From the NCBI GenBank assembly GCA_016191335.1, contig JACPOW010000038.1:1-51287 (forward strand): a stretch of DNA of 51,287 nucleotides. The letters are read 5' to 3'. Positions 28,495 to 35,556 of this stretch are shown piece after piece. Below the pieces are notes generated by a model. It worked only from the letters and a program-made list of their open reading frames with translations. It did not search any database and was not told where the DNA came from. A program made the position numbers and the translations under genes. The DNA comes from Elusimicrobiota bacterium. GTDB lineage: Bacteria > Elusimicrobiota > Elusimicrobia > UBA1565 > UBA9628. Positions within the stretch are counted from its first letter, which is position 1; each line of letters starts with the position of its first letter.

Positions 28495-29886
28495 TTAGCG
28501 TCCGGCCTTGGCGAGTTTGGCCTTTTTCGGAGCCGGCCTGGGAGCCGGGGCGGCCGAGGCGGTCTTCGTCGGGTCGTAGTAGTCGAGGCCGCTGTGGTCG
28601 AGGACTTCCTCGCCCATCAGCACCCGCAGGGTGTTCTTGAGCTTGAGGTGCTGGATGAACAGGTCGTGCTCGGGCTTGAGGTCCTCGCGGCACTGCGGGC
28701 TCTTGAAGAAGAACGAGAGCCACTCCTGGATGCCCTTGAGGTCGGCGCGCTTGGCGAGGTCCAGGAAAAGGACCAGGTCGAGCACGATCTGCGCCGCCAG
28801 GATCGAGTCCCGGCACAGGAAGTTGATCTTGATCTGCATCGGCATGTCCATCCAGCCGCGGATGTCGATGTTGTCCCAGCCTTCCTTCGCGTCGCCGCGA
28901 GGGGGGTAATAGTCGATGCGGACCTTGTGGTGGAACTTGCCGTACAGCTCGGGGTAGAGCTCGGGCTCGAGGATGGTGTCGAGCACCGACATCTTGCTGA
29001 GCTCCTTCGTTTTGAACGAGCCCGGGTCGTCGAGCACCTCGCCGTCGCGGTTGCCGAGGATGTTCGTCGAGTACCAGCCGGTCAGGGCCAGCATGCGCGC
29101 CTTGAGCATCGGCGCGATGGTGGTCTTCATCAGCGTCTGGCCGGTCTTGAAGTCCTTGCCGCAGATGGGGGAGCCCGTCTGCTCGGCGAGTTCGACCAGG
29201 GCCGGGACGTCCCCGGACAGGTTCGGCGCGCCGTTGCCGTAGGCCATGCCGAGCTTGATCGCGGCGTAGGCGTAGATCATCGACGGCGGGATGGACGGGT
29301 CGTTGTCGCGCAGCCCCTGCTCGAGCGCCTCGATGTCCTCGTGGCACTTCGAGGGCTCGGGCAGCCGCTCGGTCGAGCCGCACCAGAGCATGACGACGCG
29401 GTCGCAGCCGTTCTTCTTCTTGAAGGCCTCGATGTCGGCCATCACCTGCTGGGCGAGGTCCATCTTGGTCTTGCCTTTCTTCGGGTTGAGCGCCTTGATG
29501 TTCTTGATGTAGGCGGGGTCGTAGATGGCGGGCATCGGCTTGATCGCCGAGAGCTCCTTCTTGATCGGCGCGAGCTGCGCCGCGTCGAGGACGCCGCACT
29601 TCGTCGCCGCGACGAACATGTCGTCGGTGAAGAAGTCCCAGCCGCCGAAAACGAGCTGGTCGAGGGAGGCCAGGGGCACGAAATCCTTGATGAGCGGCGA
29701 GCGGTTCTCGTAGCGCTTGCCCAGGCGGATGGCCTGCATCTGGGTGACGGAGCCGACGGGGGTGCCGAGGCCCTTCTTGACGAGCTCCACGCCCGCGATG
29801 AAGGTGCTGGTCACCGCTCCCATTCCGGGGAGGAGGACGCCGAGCTTGCCCTTAGCGGGCTGGATGCGGCTGCCGTGCTTGTTCAT
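28495..29886 (-). CDS. myo-Inositol-1-phosphate synthase
   Basis: 463 residues. NAD-binding segment GVLLPGMGAVTSTFIAGVE, then GSVTQMQAIRLGKR, a GSTERLPE motif, the catalytic-lysine region CGKDFKTGQTLMKTT, and NILGNRDGEVLDD followed by FKTKELSK. These identify the Ino1 family, in the long bacterial form also found in Bacteroidota inositol-lipid clusters. It converts glucose 6-phosphate to inositol 1(3)-phosphate using NAD as a recycled cofactor. The C-terminal 30 residues are a Pro/Ala/Lys tail. AGGAG precedes the ATG at 29886, and the gene overlaps the CDP-alcohol transferase by 35 bases. It is the last gene of the seven-gene operon. Confidence 0.93.
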   Translation of the reverse strand: MNKHGSRIQPAKGKLGVLLPGMGAVTSTFIAGVELVKKGLGTPVGSVTQMQAIRLGKRYENRSPLIKDFVPLASLDQLVFGGWDFFTDDMFVAATKCGVLDAAQLAPIKKELSAIKPMPAIYDPAYIKNIKALNPKKGKTKMDLAQQVMADIEAFKKKNGCDRVVMLWCGSTERLPEPSKCHEDIEALEQGLRDNDPSIPPSMIYAYAAIKLGMAYGNGAPNLSGDVPALVELAEQTGSPICGKDFKTGQTLMKTTIAPMLKARMLALTGWYSTNILGNRDGEVLDDPGSFKTKELSKMSVLDTILEPELYPELYGKFHHKVRIDYYPPRGDAKEGWDNIDIRGWMDMPMQIKINFLCRDSILAAQIVLDLVLFLDLAKRADLKGIQEWLSFFFKSPQCREDLKPEHDLFIQHLKLKNTLRVLMGEEVLDHSGLDYYDPTKTASAAPAPRPAPKKAKLAKAGR

Positions 29887-31036
29887 TGATGTTGACTCTC
29901 CTGAGGTACAGCATGACTATGAAATAGAGGGAGCCGCCGATGGCGGCGGCCCAGAGGAACTCGTACACCATGTCCACGAAGGCGAGGAGCACGAGCAGGT
30001 AGATGAAGTCGCGCTGGGCGAGGGCGTTCTCGATGCGCGACAGCTTGGACTCGAAGCCGTCGCCCGGGGCCTGCTCCACGACGCCGGCCTCCGCGGCGCG
30101 GCTCTCGCGGCGCGCGCGGCGGTGCCGCCACGCGGTCCAGGCCGAGGCGAGCACGCCCGCGTCGGCGACGGCCGCGAGCGCCAAGGTGCGGCGGTGCCCG
30201 TCGAGCCAGAAGCCGACGCCGAGGCAGGTGAACAGGGCCAGGTGCACGAGGTTGTCGCCCCAGAAATCGAGGTCGGAGCCGAGCGAGCTCTCCTGGAAGC
30301 GCACGCGCGCGAGCTCGCCGTCGCAGCCGTCGAGCACCGAGTGCAGCCAGACGAGCAGGGCCCCGGCCACGTAGTAGAGGCGGGTGTCGCCGAGGAAGAA
30401 CAAGGCGCCGATAAGCCCGAGCGTCGTGCTGAACACGGTCATCTGGTTCGGCGTGACCGAGGTCTCGAGCAGGGCGCGGCTCACGGCGAGCGAGAGATGC
30501 CGGTCGAAGTGCCGGGCCATGAAGCCGTCCTGGGGCTTGGGGCCGGCGACCATGAGCCAGTCCACGATCGCGCCCTGGTTGAGCGGCGCCTCCAGGCGCT
30601 TGCAGGCCCCGTCGGGCAGGGGCTGCTTGACGCGCGAGATCAGCTCCTCCTTGGCGAGCACGACCTGGACGACGCTCAGCGCGGAGGCGTCCTCGTAGCT
30701 GACCGAGTCCGGGAACTCCTGGCGCGCGATGAAGGCGAGGGTCTCGACCCGGATGAAATGGTCGGCGGAGAGGCCGAGGTAGGGGGGCGCGCAGTCGTTG
30801 AGCGCCGCCTCGCCCTTGGTCACCCAGCGCACCTCGAGGCCCGGGGGCAGGCGCAGCCCCGCGAGTTGCCCCGGCTCCGGCTCGGGGATCGTGACGAACA
30901 CGGACTTGAGGCCCGCGCGCGCCGCGGTGAACAGCTGGCGCTCGAGCACGGACAGGCCGCCGCAGCGCTGCCACAGCAGCTTGGGATGCGCGGCCCAGAG
31001 GATCGCGCGGGTGAAGACGTTCGCGGTGTTAGGCAC
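29852..31036 (-). CDS. CDP-alcohol phosphotransferase with degenerate nucleotidyltransferase-like N-terminus (IPCT/DIPPS-like)
   Basis: 394 residues from GTG 31036 (GGAGG 9 bases upstream; overlaps the dehydrogenase end by 8 bases). The C-terminal membrane domain has the complete CDP-alcohol motif: D236, D239-G240, A243-R244, G253, D257, D261. It is introduced by DGFMARHFDRHLSL and SVTPNQMTVFSTTLG, as in di-myo-inositol-phosphate-phosphate synthases. The N-terminal 150 residues look like a sugar nucleotidyltransferase fold (GGLSVLERQLFTAARAGLKS) but lack the usual AAGxGxRL and Lys signature, so that domain is probably inactive. Likely role: transfer of an inositol- or cyclitol-phosphate from a CDP carrier to a hydroxyl acceptor at the membrane. 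Confidence 0.85.
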   Translation of the reverse strand: MPNTANVFTRAILWAAHPKLLWQRCGGLSVLERQLFTAARAGLKSVFVTIPEPEPGQLAGLRLPPGLEVRWVTKGEAALNDCAPPYLGLSADHFIRVETLAFIARQEFPDSVSYEDASALSVVQVVLAKEELISRVKQPLPDGACKRLEAPLNQGAIVDWLMVAGPKPQDGFMARHFDRHLSLAVSRALLETSVTPNQMTVFSTTLGLIGALFFLGDTRLYYVAGALLVWLHSVLDGCDGELARVRFQESSLGSDLDFWGDNLVHLALFTCLGVGFWLDGHRRTLALAAVADAGVLASAWTAWRHRRARRESRAAEAGVVEQAPGDGFESKLSRIENALAQRDFIYLLVLLAFVDMVYEFLWAAAIGGSLYFIVMLYLRRVNINEQARQPHPAR

Positions 31037-34894: not shown

Positions 34895-35556
34895 CCGAGG
34901 ACGGCCTCGAGGTCGGCGACCGAGCGGATCGTCCAGTCCTGCCCGGCGTCCGGCGCCTTGTCCGCGACCGAGATCAGCGCCCGCTTCATCCCGACGCCTT
35001 CGGCGCCCTTCATGTCGCGCTTGATCGAGTCCCCGACCATGACGCACTCCGCCGGATCCGCGCCGACGGCCTTCGCGGCGTGGAGGAAGATCGCCGCCTC
35101 GGGCTTGATCACCCCGAGGACCCCGGAGTCGGCCACGACGGTGAAGAACGGCCGCAGGCCCTCGGCCGCGAGCAGGCCTTCGAGGTTGCCGTAGAAATTG
35201 GACACGACGCCGAGCCGGTAGCGGCCGGCCAGCCGCCCGAGCACGGGAGTCAGGCGCTGGAACTGGCCGCGGCAGTCCGCGACGAAGCGGCCGGCGATGG
35301 GGTCGACGAGGTCGCCGCGTTCCGGGGCCACGGCCTTGAGGACGTCCTCGACCTGAAGACGCACCGTCTGCGCGAGGTCCAGGCCTTTGAGCGCGTGGCG
35401 GGCGTGCAGGTTGTCGTCCGAATCGTAGAAAGCGCGCTCGAGCCGTTCCAGCGGTACGTTCAAGCCGGCTTCCTTATAAAGGGGGAGGAAGCGCTCGAGC
35501 CAGGTGGTTCCATCGGCGTCGAGGGTCCCCCCATAGTCGAACAGCAGGGACTTCAT
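34891..35556 (-). CDS. HAD-superfamily protein with DYGGT motif
   Basis: 221 residues. Motif I is LLFDYGGTLD, motif II VVSNF, motif III lysine in VIKPEAAIF and motif IV VMVGDSIKRDM, with a helical C1 cap between. The nucleophile Asp is present, but the position two residues on, usually an acid/base Asp in HAD phosphatases, is Gly. It may still act on a phosphate ester as related DYGGT proteins may, or have another role. It is the first gene of the inositol operon. The ATG at 35556 lies exactly 6 bases after a perfect TATAAT, implying a leaderless mRNA. Confidence 0.82.
   Translation of the reverse strand: MKSLLFDYGGTLDADGTTWLERFLPLYKEAGLNVPLERLERAFYDSDDNLHARHALKGLDLAQTVRLQVEDVLKAVAPERGDLVDPIAGRFVADCRGQFQRLTPVLGRLAGRYRLGVVSNFYGNLEGLLAAEGLRPFFTVVADSGVLGVIKPEAAIFLHAAKAVGADPAECVMVGDSIKRDMKGAEGVGMKRALISVADKAPDAGQDWTIRSVADLEAVLG

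Follow-up and report, generated by a model that had tools for sequence, protein, structure and literature searches.

The window analyzed here is a 51,287-nucleotide stretch of DNA from an Elusimicrobiota bacterium; it is contig C37 in a genome (G000) of 3.66 Mb and 93.9% completeness. Its minus strand carries, from 35556 down to 28495, a seven-gene operon for a HAD-family phosphatase-like protein (HAD), a nucleotidyltransferase (NTP), an ATP-grasp enzyme (GRASP), a class III aminotransferase (AT3), a Gfo/Idh dehydrogenase (GFO), a CDP-alcohol phosphotransferase (CDPOH) and the inositol-3-phosphate synthase Ino1. We read this operon, with confidence that is evenly balanced, as a cassette that makes an inositol head group bearing an amine and attached through a phosphodiester, with a membrane lipid as the most likely acceptor. 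An inositol-derived CDP donor and a transfer at the membrane are the most economical reading of the gene set; an amine on the inositol and a hopanoid as acceptor are attractive and unproven.

Conservation and architecture of the cassette

The ATP-grasp gene, the hallmark of the cassette, was searched for in 294 Elusimicrobiota genomes and matched in 53 of them, once weakly (G161, E 6.8e-4). Gene order was read in 40 loci; L033, one of the 40, consists of a contig end from the genome to which the window belongs. The full set of seven stood in order in 24 of the 40 loci, six or more genes in 31, and five or more in 36; several loci with fewer genes are cut by contig ends, and a deviating order was found in none. 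Because the order was complete in 24 loci and never different in 40, the cassette is not a chance grouping. From a wider search for GRASP, 80 of 233 loci were kept, including 26 from groups outside Elusimicrobiota. The same order was found in all 21 loci of Methylomirabilota, Rokubacteria and Deltaproteobacteria (4–7 genes each), and the two Ignavibacteria loci had seven and five cassette genes in rearranged order. Bacteroidota contributed three loci, two from Runella and one from Sphingobacterium, which had GRASP, NTP and CDPOH with HAD or Ino1. AT3 and GFO were absent from these three and thus seem to form an amination branch on a wider core of GRASP, NTP, HAD, CDPOH and Ino1. GRASP was present in 5 of 148 sampled genomes of the order of Runella zeae, R. 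zeae included; strain DSM 19591 of that species has the short cluster, which lacks AT3 and GFO.

Ino1 was found in 51 of the 52 Elusimicrobiota genomes with a clear ATP-grasp match (G213 was the miss; the weak G161 was excluded), versus 9 of the 242 others. The Rokubacteria and Methylomirabilota loci belong to the class of G306, from which 95 genomes were covered, 53 with GRASP and 78 with Ino1. Ino1 was present in 53/53 genomes with GRASP versus 25/42 without it, and none of the 17 genomes without Ino1 had GRASP. Where present, Ino1 is the last gene of the cassette in Elusimicrobiota and Methylomirabilota. The block is one real, widespread conserved unit. The original prediction had treated the genes as one unit and had named their lying apart in most relatives as evidence to the contrary; the comparison did not refute it.

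Within the window, the gene families named originally were confirmed by family searches and, for the ATP-grasp enzyme, by predicted fold; the coordinates likewise bore out that all genes are joined by overlaps or by gaps of at most 4 bases. HAD (P0007, 221 aa, 34891–35556) overlaps the MobA/cytidylyltransferase-like NTP (P0006, 231 aa, 34199–34894) by 4 bases, and NTP overlaps GRASP (P0005, 280 aa, 33360–34202) by 4. The sole gap of the operon, of 4 bases, separates GRASP from AT3 (P0004, 447 aa, 32012–33355). AT3 and GFO (Gfo/Idh/MocA family, P0003, about 328 aa, 31029–32015) overlap by 4 bases on the assumption that dehydrogenase translation begins at a CTG which shares bases with the stop codon of the aminotransferase; GFO and CDPOH (P0002, 394 aa, 29852–31036) overlap by 8 bases, and CDPOH and Ino1 (also named MIPS; P0001, 463 aa, 28495–29886) by 35. 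The CTG start is probable. No ATG, GTG or TTG lies near the Rossmann start of the dehydrogenase (32010–32016), and the CTG, within CTGA, was kept in all seven same-genus relatives inspected (L034–L038, L040 and L041); in L042, from another genus, the dehydrogenase has an ATG start. This arrangement could be accounted for by a CTG start that is conserved or by a frameshift linking the two genes.

The terminator scan found the predicted intrinsic terminator, a strong one, after the Ino1 stop, on the minus strand, with a 12-pair stem and a T-run (stem, then TTCTTTTTT; 28476–28449). At the other end, a motif search placed a TATAAT at 35563–35568 on the minus strand, 6 bases upstream of the HAD start, as predicted; the hexamer occurs twice in the whole window with both strands counted. 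Its position was borne out, but the promoter scan called no site there, so the case for a promoter is weak. After the operon, a BamA-like outer-membrane assembly protein (assigned by eye) is encoded on the same strand at 25396–28041. The same bin holds a second ATP-grasp gene, 79% identical, and at two contig ends (L033, G000:C106:1-10000; L002, the end of G000:C47) ORFs of the CDP-alcohol transferase or Ino1 run into unrelated sequence. The second copy and the hybrid ORFs probably reflect a strain mixture or a chimeric assembly.

Enzymes of the cassette and the proposed pathway

In the proposed pathway, Ino1 would convert glucose 6-phosphate into inositol 3-phosphate, which is the chemistry of its family. 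The dehydrogenase would oxidize a ring hydroxyl, at which the class III aminotransferase would install an amine, and the ATP-grasp enzyme would modify the ring, for which an inositol-phosphate kinase is the simplest assumption. HAD would remove a phosphate, and together with the ATP-grasp enzyme it could bring the phosphate to the site of activation. The separate nucleotidyltransferase, judged from its family, would form a CDP-activated cyclitol, and the membrane CDP-alcohol transferase, again judged from its family, would hand the cyclitol phosphate to the acceptor. Related genes occur within or next to hopanoid operons, for which reason the acceptor would most likely be a membrane lipid and, in organisms that make hopanoids, perhaps a hopanoid polyol.

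The enzymes of the cassette look active from their conserved residues. In alignments whose rows were hand-picked from the retrieved loci, D7, T11, S119, K151, D176 and D181 of HAD, and also G16 and W19, were invariant (15/15), as were G9, G11, R13, K21, D105, D211 and D213 of NTP (17/17), K97, D182 and H186 of GFO (17/17), and K285 of AT3, taken as the lysine that binds pyridoxal phosphate (PLP) (15/15). From knowledge of the families, we take the conserved positions of HAD, NTP, GFO, AT3 and CDPOH to be catalytic. The best solved relative of Ino1 was 7nwr (500 bits), and NTP gave a weak NCBIfam match to the IPCT half of IPCT/DIPPS.

The two enzymes of the amination branch are compatible with the roles first given to them. 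GFO kept the residues taken as catalytic in its superfamily, and its best NCBIfam match was inositol 2-dehydrogenase, at 73 bits far under the cut-off of 355. In the Pfam search, P0004 matched Aminotran_3 only (330 bits) and not the DegT/StrS type, the family of StsC of the streptomycin-type inosamine pathway. Orthologs matched P0004 at 478–1006 bits in 8 of 8 genomes searched, and all other matches listed reached at most 232 bits; judged by these scores, AT3 is therefore a separate ortholog group, set apart from paralogs in every one of the eight genomes.

The ATP-grasp enzyme was harder to place between kinase and ligase. W134, K136, R137, H141, K184-F-Y, D246, N248 and W250-P-S-F-A were invariant in 26 of 26 sequences. 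P0005 had no Pfam family at 1e-3 and no match in the PADLOC library, and was assigned to ATP-grasp by the fold of its predicted structure (pLDDT 91.6). This fold matched ArgX, LysX, Ddl, ITPK1, RimK and PPIP5K, all at E 1e-13 to 1e-11, and the model is thus neutral between the two activities. When a profile of 15 sequences was compared with solved sequences, the top match was ITPK4 (E 0.0035), with the conserved GDLIKFYGVG of the cassette enzyme aligned to IFKFYVLG. With 26 sequences, the five best matches were ITPK4 and ITPK1 (E 0.0038–0.0071), followed by a designed protein (0.011), another ATP-grasp protein (0.042) and a RimK-type ligase (0.39); unrelated proteins appeared at similar E in the same profile searches (designed protein 0.011–0.019, arsenate reductase 0.02). 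The 26 members taken singly gave weak matches to RimK (11), ITPK (8, best E 8.4e-4) and YheCD (7, best E 9.2e-5). Cut-offs for RimK-type ligases were not reached (rimK_fam, 19.7 vs 143.4 bits; PF08443, 11.6 vs 21). The ITPK family PF05770 was searched in 60 genomes, three of them with the cassette ATP-grasp, and its cut-off of 23 was not reached by the enzyme in those three (G030, 17.5 bits; G000, 12 for the second copy; G053, none). On sequence grounds we lean, not firmly, toward a kinase rather than a ligase.

Matches to PF05770 above the cut-off in G028 and G045 were rejected as other ATP-grasp genes, not those of the cassette. G028 had no Ino1 match, and in G045 Ino1 lies on a different contig from the PF05770 gene. 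Three ATP-grasp genes of G028 (L153, 7828–11612) that exceed the ITPK Pfam cut-off are arranged nearly in tandem, interspersed with an ORF judged by eye to resemble mannitol dehydrogenase. PMC8024741 reports ITPKs from Lokiarchaeota.

The CDP-alcohol phosphotransferase P0002 consists of an N-terminal domain of nucleotidyltransferase fold and a membrane domain with the motif DxxDGxxAR...GxxxDxxxD, whose eight signature residues were invariant in 20 of 20 sequences. It belongs to the CDP-alcohol phosphotransferase superfamily (PF01066, 39.9 bits, cut-off 22) and fell below the cut-off for phosphatidylinositol phosphate synthase (NF045883, 57.5 vs 170 bits). No GxGxR signature is present at the N-terminus of P0002; the signature sits in the separate P0006. 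The structure matches of the N-terminal domain were of nucleotidyltransferase fold, IPCT among them, and were clearer than the profile comparison with the separate NTP, which was weak (probability 21%). In genus g2, which has squalene-hopene cyclase (SHC) but no ATP-grasp match, three of five genomes hold a stand-alone relative of the N-terminal domain only (G222:C11:85602, G094:C5:76366 and G283:C96:685; 30–32% identity).

The best solved sequence relatives of P0002 were AF2299 (85.5 bits) and IPCT-DIPPS (47.9 bits), its predicted structure (pLDDT 84.2) matched AF2299 and AF IPCT-DIPPS first, and its best NCBIfam match was IPCT/DIPPS, at 77.6 bits under the cut-off of 580 of a model made for Thermococcales. 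These matches would suit a soluble product, an aminated relative of di-myo-inositol phosphate that serves as a solute and is made through Ino1, the cytidylyltransferase, the DIPP-synthase-like transferase and HAD, a possible phosphatase for this route. We consider a soluble product unlikely, given the flippase-like, Mla-type and hopanoid genes around related genes in several phyla. The source hints of the relatives (NC_groundwater, LacPavin, palsa) are also not suggestive of hyperthermophiles, of which di-myo-inositol phosphate is a known solute (PMC9246714).

Hopanoid genes and alternative modules

Genes for hopanoids, the bacterial counterpart of cholesterol, were found around the cassette or its Ino1 in several groups. 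In a deltaproteobacterium (L127), HpnA, HpnL and HpnM, all above curated cut-offs, lie directly upstream of the cassette, and relatives of the three likewise precede it in L139. In five of five named Rokubacteria (L160, L162–L165), SHC, MlaE, MlaF, MlaD, HpnM and Ino1 form a co-directional run, in which HpnL precedes Ino1 in one case. Ino1 is directly followed by HpnN in four of the five; the exception is G298 (L160, L161), where the cassette minus Ino1 lies on the opposite strand between Ino1 and HpnN. Divergent beside SHC stand HpnH and HpnG in all five and HpnA in four, one stretch ending earlier. In the family search of these Rokubacteria, HpnH (L163), HpnA (L160) and MlaE (L163, TIGR00056) were above cut-off, and HpnG, HpnL, HpnM and HpnN were below; MlaF and MlaD were assigned by eye, and the Ino1 of L163 is of mycothiol type (521.6 bits, cut-off 638). 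The co-directionality of MlaE, MlaF and MlaD with SHC suggests a dedicated lipid transporter. HpnL-like flippase genes were also present in the Runella and Ignavibacteria (L143) clusters (93.8 and 90.4 bits, cut-off 195.65), the Runella locus reading NTP, GRASP, CDPOH, an LPG_synthase_TM protein (the HpnL-like one, below cut-off) and HAD. SHC was matched in 19 of the 26 non-Elusimicrobiota cassette genomes.

Ino1 neighborhoods in the class of G306 were compared in hand-chosen sets of 20 of the 53 GRASP-positive genomes and 20 of the 25 Ino1-positive, GRASP-negative genomes. The Ino1 stretch contained HpnN in 19/20 cassette-positive and 17/20 cassette-negative cases, and SHC in 15/20 and 7/20, some stretches ending before it. 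Because HpnN was nearby in both kinds of neighborhood, Ino1 belongs to the hopanoid operon with or without the cassette. In L251, one strand runs from SHC to Ino1 and then through CDPOH, HAD and NTP up to the contig end.

Other modules were found in the same stretch. Of the 20 loci without GRASP, 14 had NTP2 and 13 had CDPOH2, relatives of the cassette enzymes, and 7 also had genes for phosphoenolpyruvate (PEP) mutase and a phosphonopyruvate-decarboxylase-like protein. NTP2 and CDPOH2 were present as well in 6 of 25 genomes of the Rokubacteria class that do have GRASP. In L245, L239–L241, L243, L244 and L233, the stretch between HpnM and Ino1 holds a PEP-mutase/nucleotidyltransferase fusion and a decarboxylase-like gene, together with a second NTP and a second CDP-alcohol transferase. 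In L245, the decarboxylase was just over the phosphonopyruvate decarboxylase cut-off (313.8 vs 312.5), and the mutase was below its NCBIfam cut-off (271 vs 320) and above that of Pfam PEP_mutase (195.5 vs 31.5). A phosphonate head group is a possible product of the PEP-mutase module; the decarboxylase-like gene alone is no phosphonate marker, because it was matched without PEP mutase in 10 of 25 cassette-positive genomes of the class. In L231, both modules follow in a row on one strand: PEP mutase, decarboxylase, NTP2, CDPOH2, HAD, NTP, GRASP, AT3, GFO, CDPOH, HpnL, Ino1 and HpnN, with no SHC within the stretch.

The retention of Ino1 in both kinds of locus, the second enzyme pairs and PEP-mutase modules of the cassette-free loci, and the arrangement of L231 would all be accounted for if Ino1 supplied the acceptor and GFO, AT3, GRASP, HAD and NTP built a different amine-bearing CDP donor, the cassette being one of several interchangeable donor modules. 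This alternative seems improbable to us, as Ino1 closes the cassette in Elusimicrobiota and Methylomirabilota and the best curated match of the dehydrogenase, weak as it is, names inositol as the substrate.

In Elusimicrobiota, SHC was matched in 40 of the 53 cassette genomes versus 9 of the 241 others (the weak G161 and G245 matches counted). By genus (n = 90, intersected by hand), 20 had both GRASP and SHC, 9 GRASP only, 3 SHC only and 58 neither. Of the GRASP genomes, 44 matched CDPOH strongly (E below 1e-30; hand count), and SHC was present in 39 of these; among the nine without such a match, SHC was present in one, a genome in 490 contigs; Fisher's test was applied to this split. The five strong-CDPOH genomes without SHC were the window's own and four of 79–85% completeness. 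All 12 other sampled genomes of the window's genus had SHC, one just under the cut-off. Co-occurrence with SHC would also be seen if the aminotransferase modified the side chain of hopanoids, as HpnO does when aminobacteriohopanetriol is made, and merely traveled with the inositol genes. We regard this as very unlikely, since AT3 was kept where no SHC was matched, in both Ignavibacteria and in the f4/f5 Elusimicrobiota G030, G082, G134, G177 and G225.

Several observations weigh against an inositol head group on a membrane lipid, or against a hopanoid in particular. The window's own genome, at the completeness given above, had no SHC match, and no cassette gene lay near the SHC-HpnH cluster in any of six Elusimicrobiota SHC neighborhoods. 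The co-occurrence counts of cassette and SHC are not independent, as related genomes share history, and Ino1 adjoins HpnN in cassette-free genomes as well. The Runella zeae genome has the ATP-grasp gene and no Ino1 match. The seven non-Elusimicrobiota cassette genomes without SHC included both Ignavibacteria and all three Bacteroidota, besides one Rokubacterium and one deltaproteobacterium; hopanoids are therefore not the acceptor everywhere. The kinship of the transferase to AF2299 and IPCT-DIPPS is a further argument against transfer to a lipid, unless a lipid takes part through its polar end: as described in PMC4634129, AF2299 uses CDP-glycerol, AF2299 and DIPPS process no lipids, and six-helix enzymes accept soluble acceptors.

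We still favor a lipid head group, by analogy with the Bacteroidota parallel described below and from the link to hopanoid operons. The original prediction of an aminocyclitol phosphodiester or lipid head group stands as regards the conserved unit, with the lipid favored, while the amination of inositol itself is something we continue to infer. More tentatively, and with the chances against it, the cassette may make a bacteriohopanepolyol with an aminoinositol (inosamine) phosphate head group. Such a compound would be an undescribed class of hopanoid, an analogue of inositol-phosphate lipids on a sterol-like anchor. It would be common to Rokubacteria, Methylomirabilota, Deltaproteobacteria and those Elusimicrobiota that make hopanoids, and phosphonate modules would be alternatives to the cassette at one position of the operon.

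Significance and comparison with known systems

The link of the cassette and Ino1 to hopanoid genes is new here and goes beyond the original observation. If the proposed pathway is true, it would extend bacterial inositol-lipid biosynthesis to several largely uncultured phyla; this biosynthesis would gain a branch for amination, along with an ATP-grasp enzyme from bacteria whose substrates may be inositol phosphates. It would also predict a new hopanoid head group, and would provide a concrete candidate cargo for HpnL and HpnM, whose roles are, to our knowledge, unsettled. Because hopanoids are widely used as geological biomarkers, an unrecognized polar hopanoid from Rokubacteria and Methylomirabilota would bear on the reading of soils and sediments.

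A description of the seven-gene cassette or of an inositol-phosphate hopanoid was not found in the titles and abstract openings of the papers that searches of open literature listed, although one may still exist in print; the original observation likewise knew of no described pathway with this gene combination. Among known systems, the hpn clusters share SHC, HpnH, HpnG, HpnA, HpnM, HpnN and sometimes HpnL with the surroundings of Ino1 in Rokubacteria, and HpnA, HpnL and HpnM with those of the cassette in a deltaproteobacterium, whereas in Elusimicrobiota the hopanoid and cassette clusters lie apart. We know of no inositol synthase or CDP-alcohol transferase in the described hpn set. The ITPK kinases were the top solved-sequence matches of the ATP-grasp profile, weakly (E 0.0035–0.007), but the cassette enzyme is below the Pfam cut-offs and its fold is equally like the ArgX/LysX, RimK and Ddl ligases.

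Like the archaeal di-myo-inositol phosphate pathway, the cassette has Ino1 and an enzyme resembling cytidylyltransferases, and its membrane transferase is DIPPS-like and carries a domain of nucleotidyltransferase fold at the N-terminus. It differs in that its intact nucleotidyltransferase is a separate gene while the fused domain is without the signature, in having three more enzymes, and in its bacterial hosts, several of them with lipid genes nearby. The four-gene relative is found in Bacteroides vulgatus and its relatives, for which PMC9246714 gives a predicted cluster of MIPS, an NTP transferase, a CDP-alcohol transferase and HAD, near a lysylphosphatidylglycerol-synthase-like gene, and inositol lipids made via CDP-inositol; the functions are called unconfirmed there, and the paper mentions neither ATP-grasp nor aminotransferase in its main text. 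Compared by gene content alone, the same four genes are present in the cassette, to which the window adds the ATP-grasp enzyme, the class III aminotransferase and the Gfo/Idh dehydrogenase, with a transferase of the DIPPS/AF2299 type.

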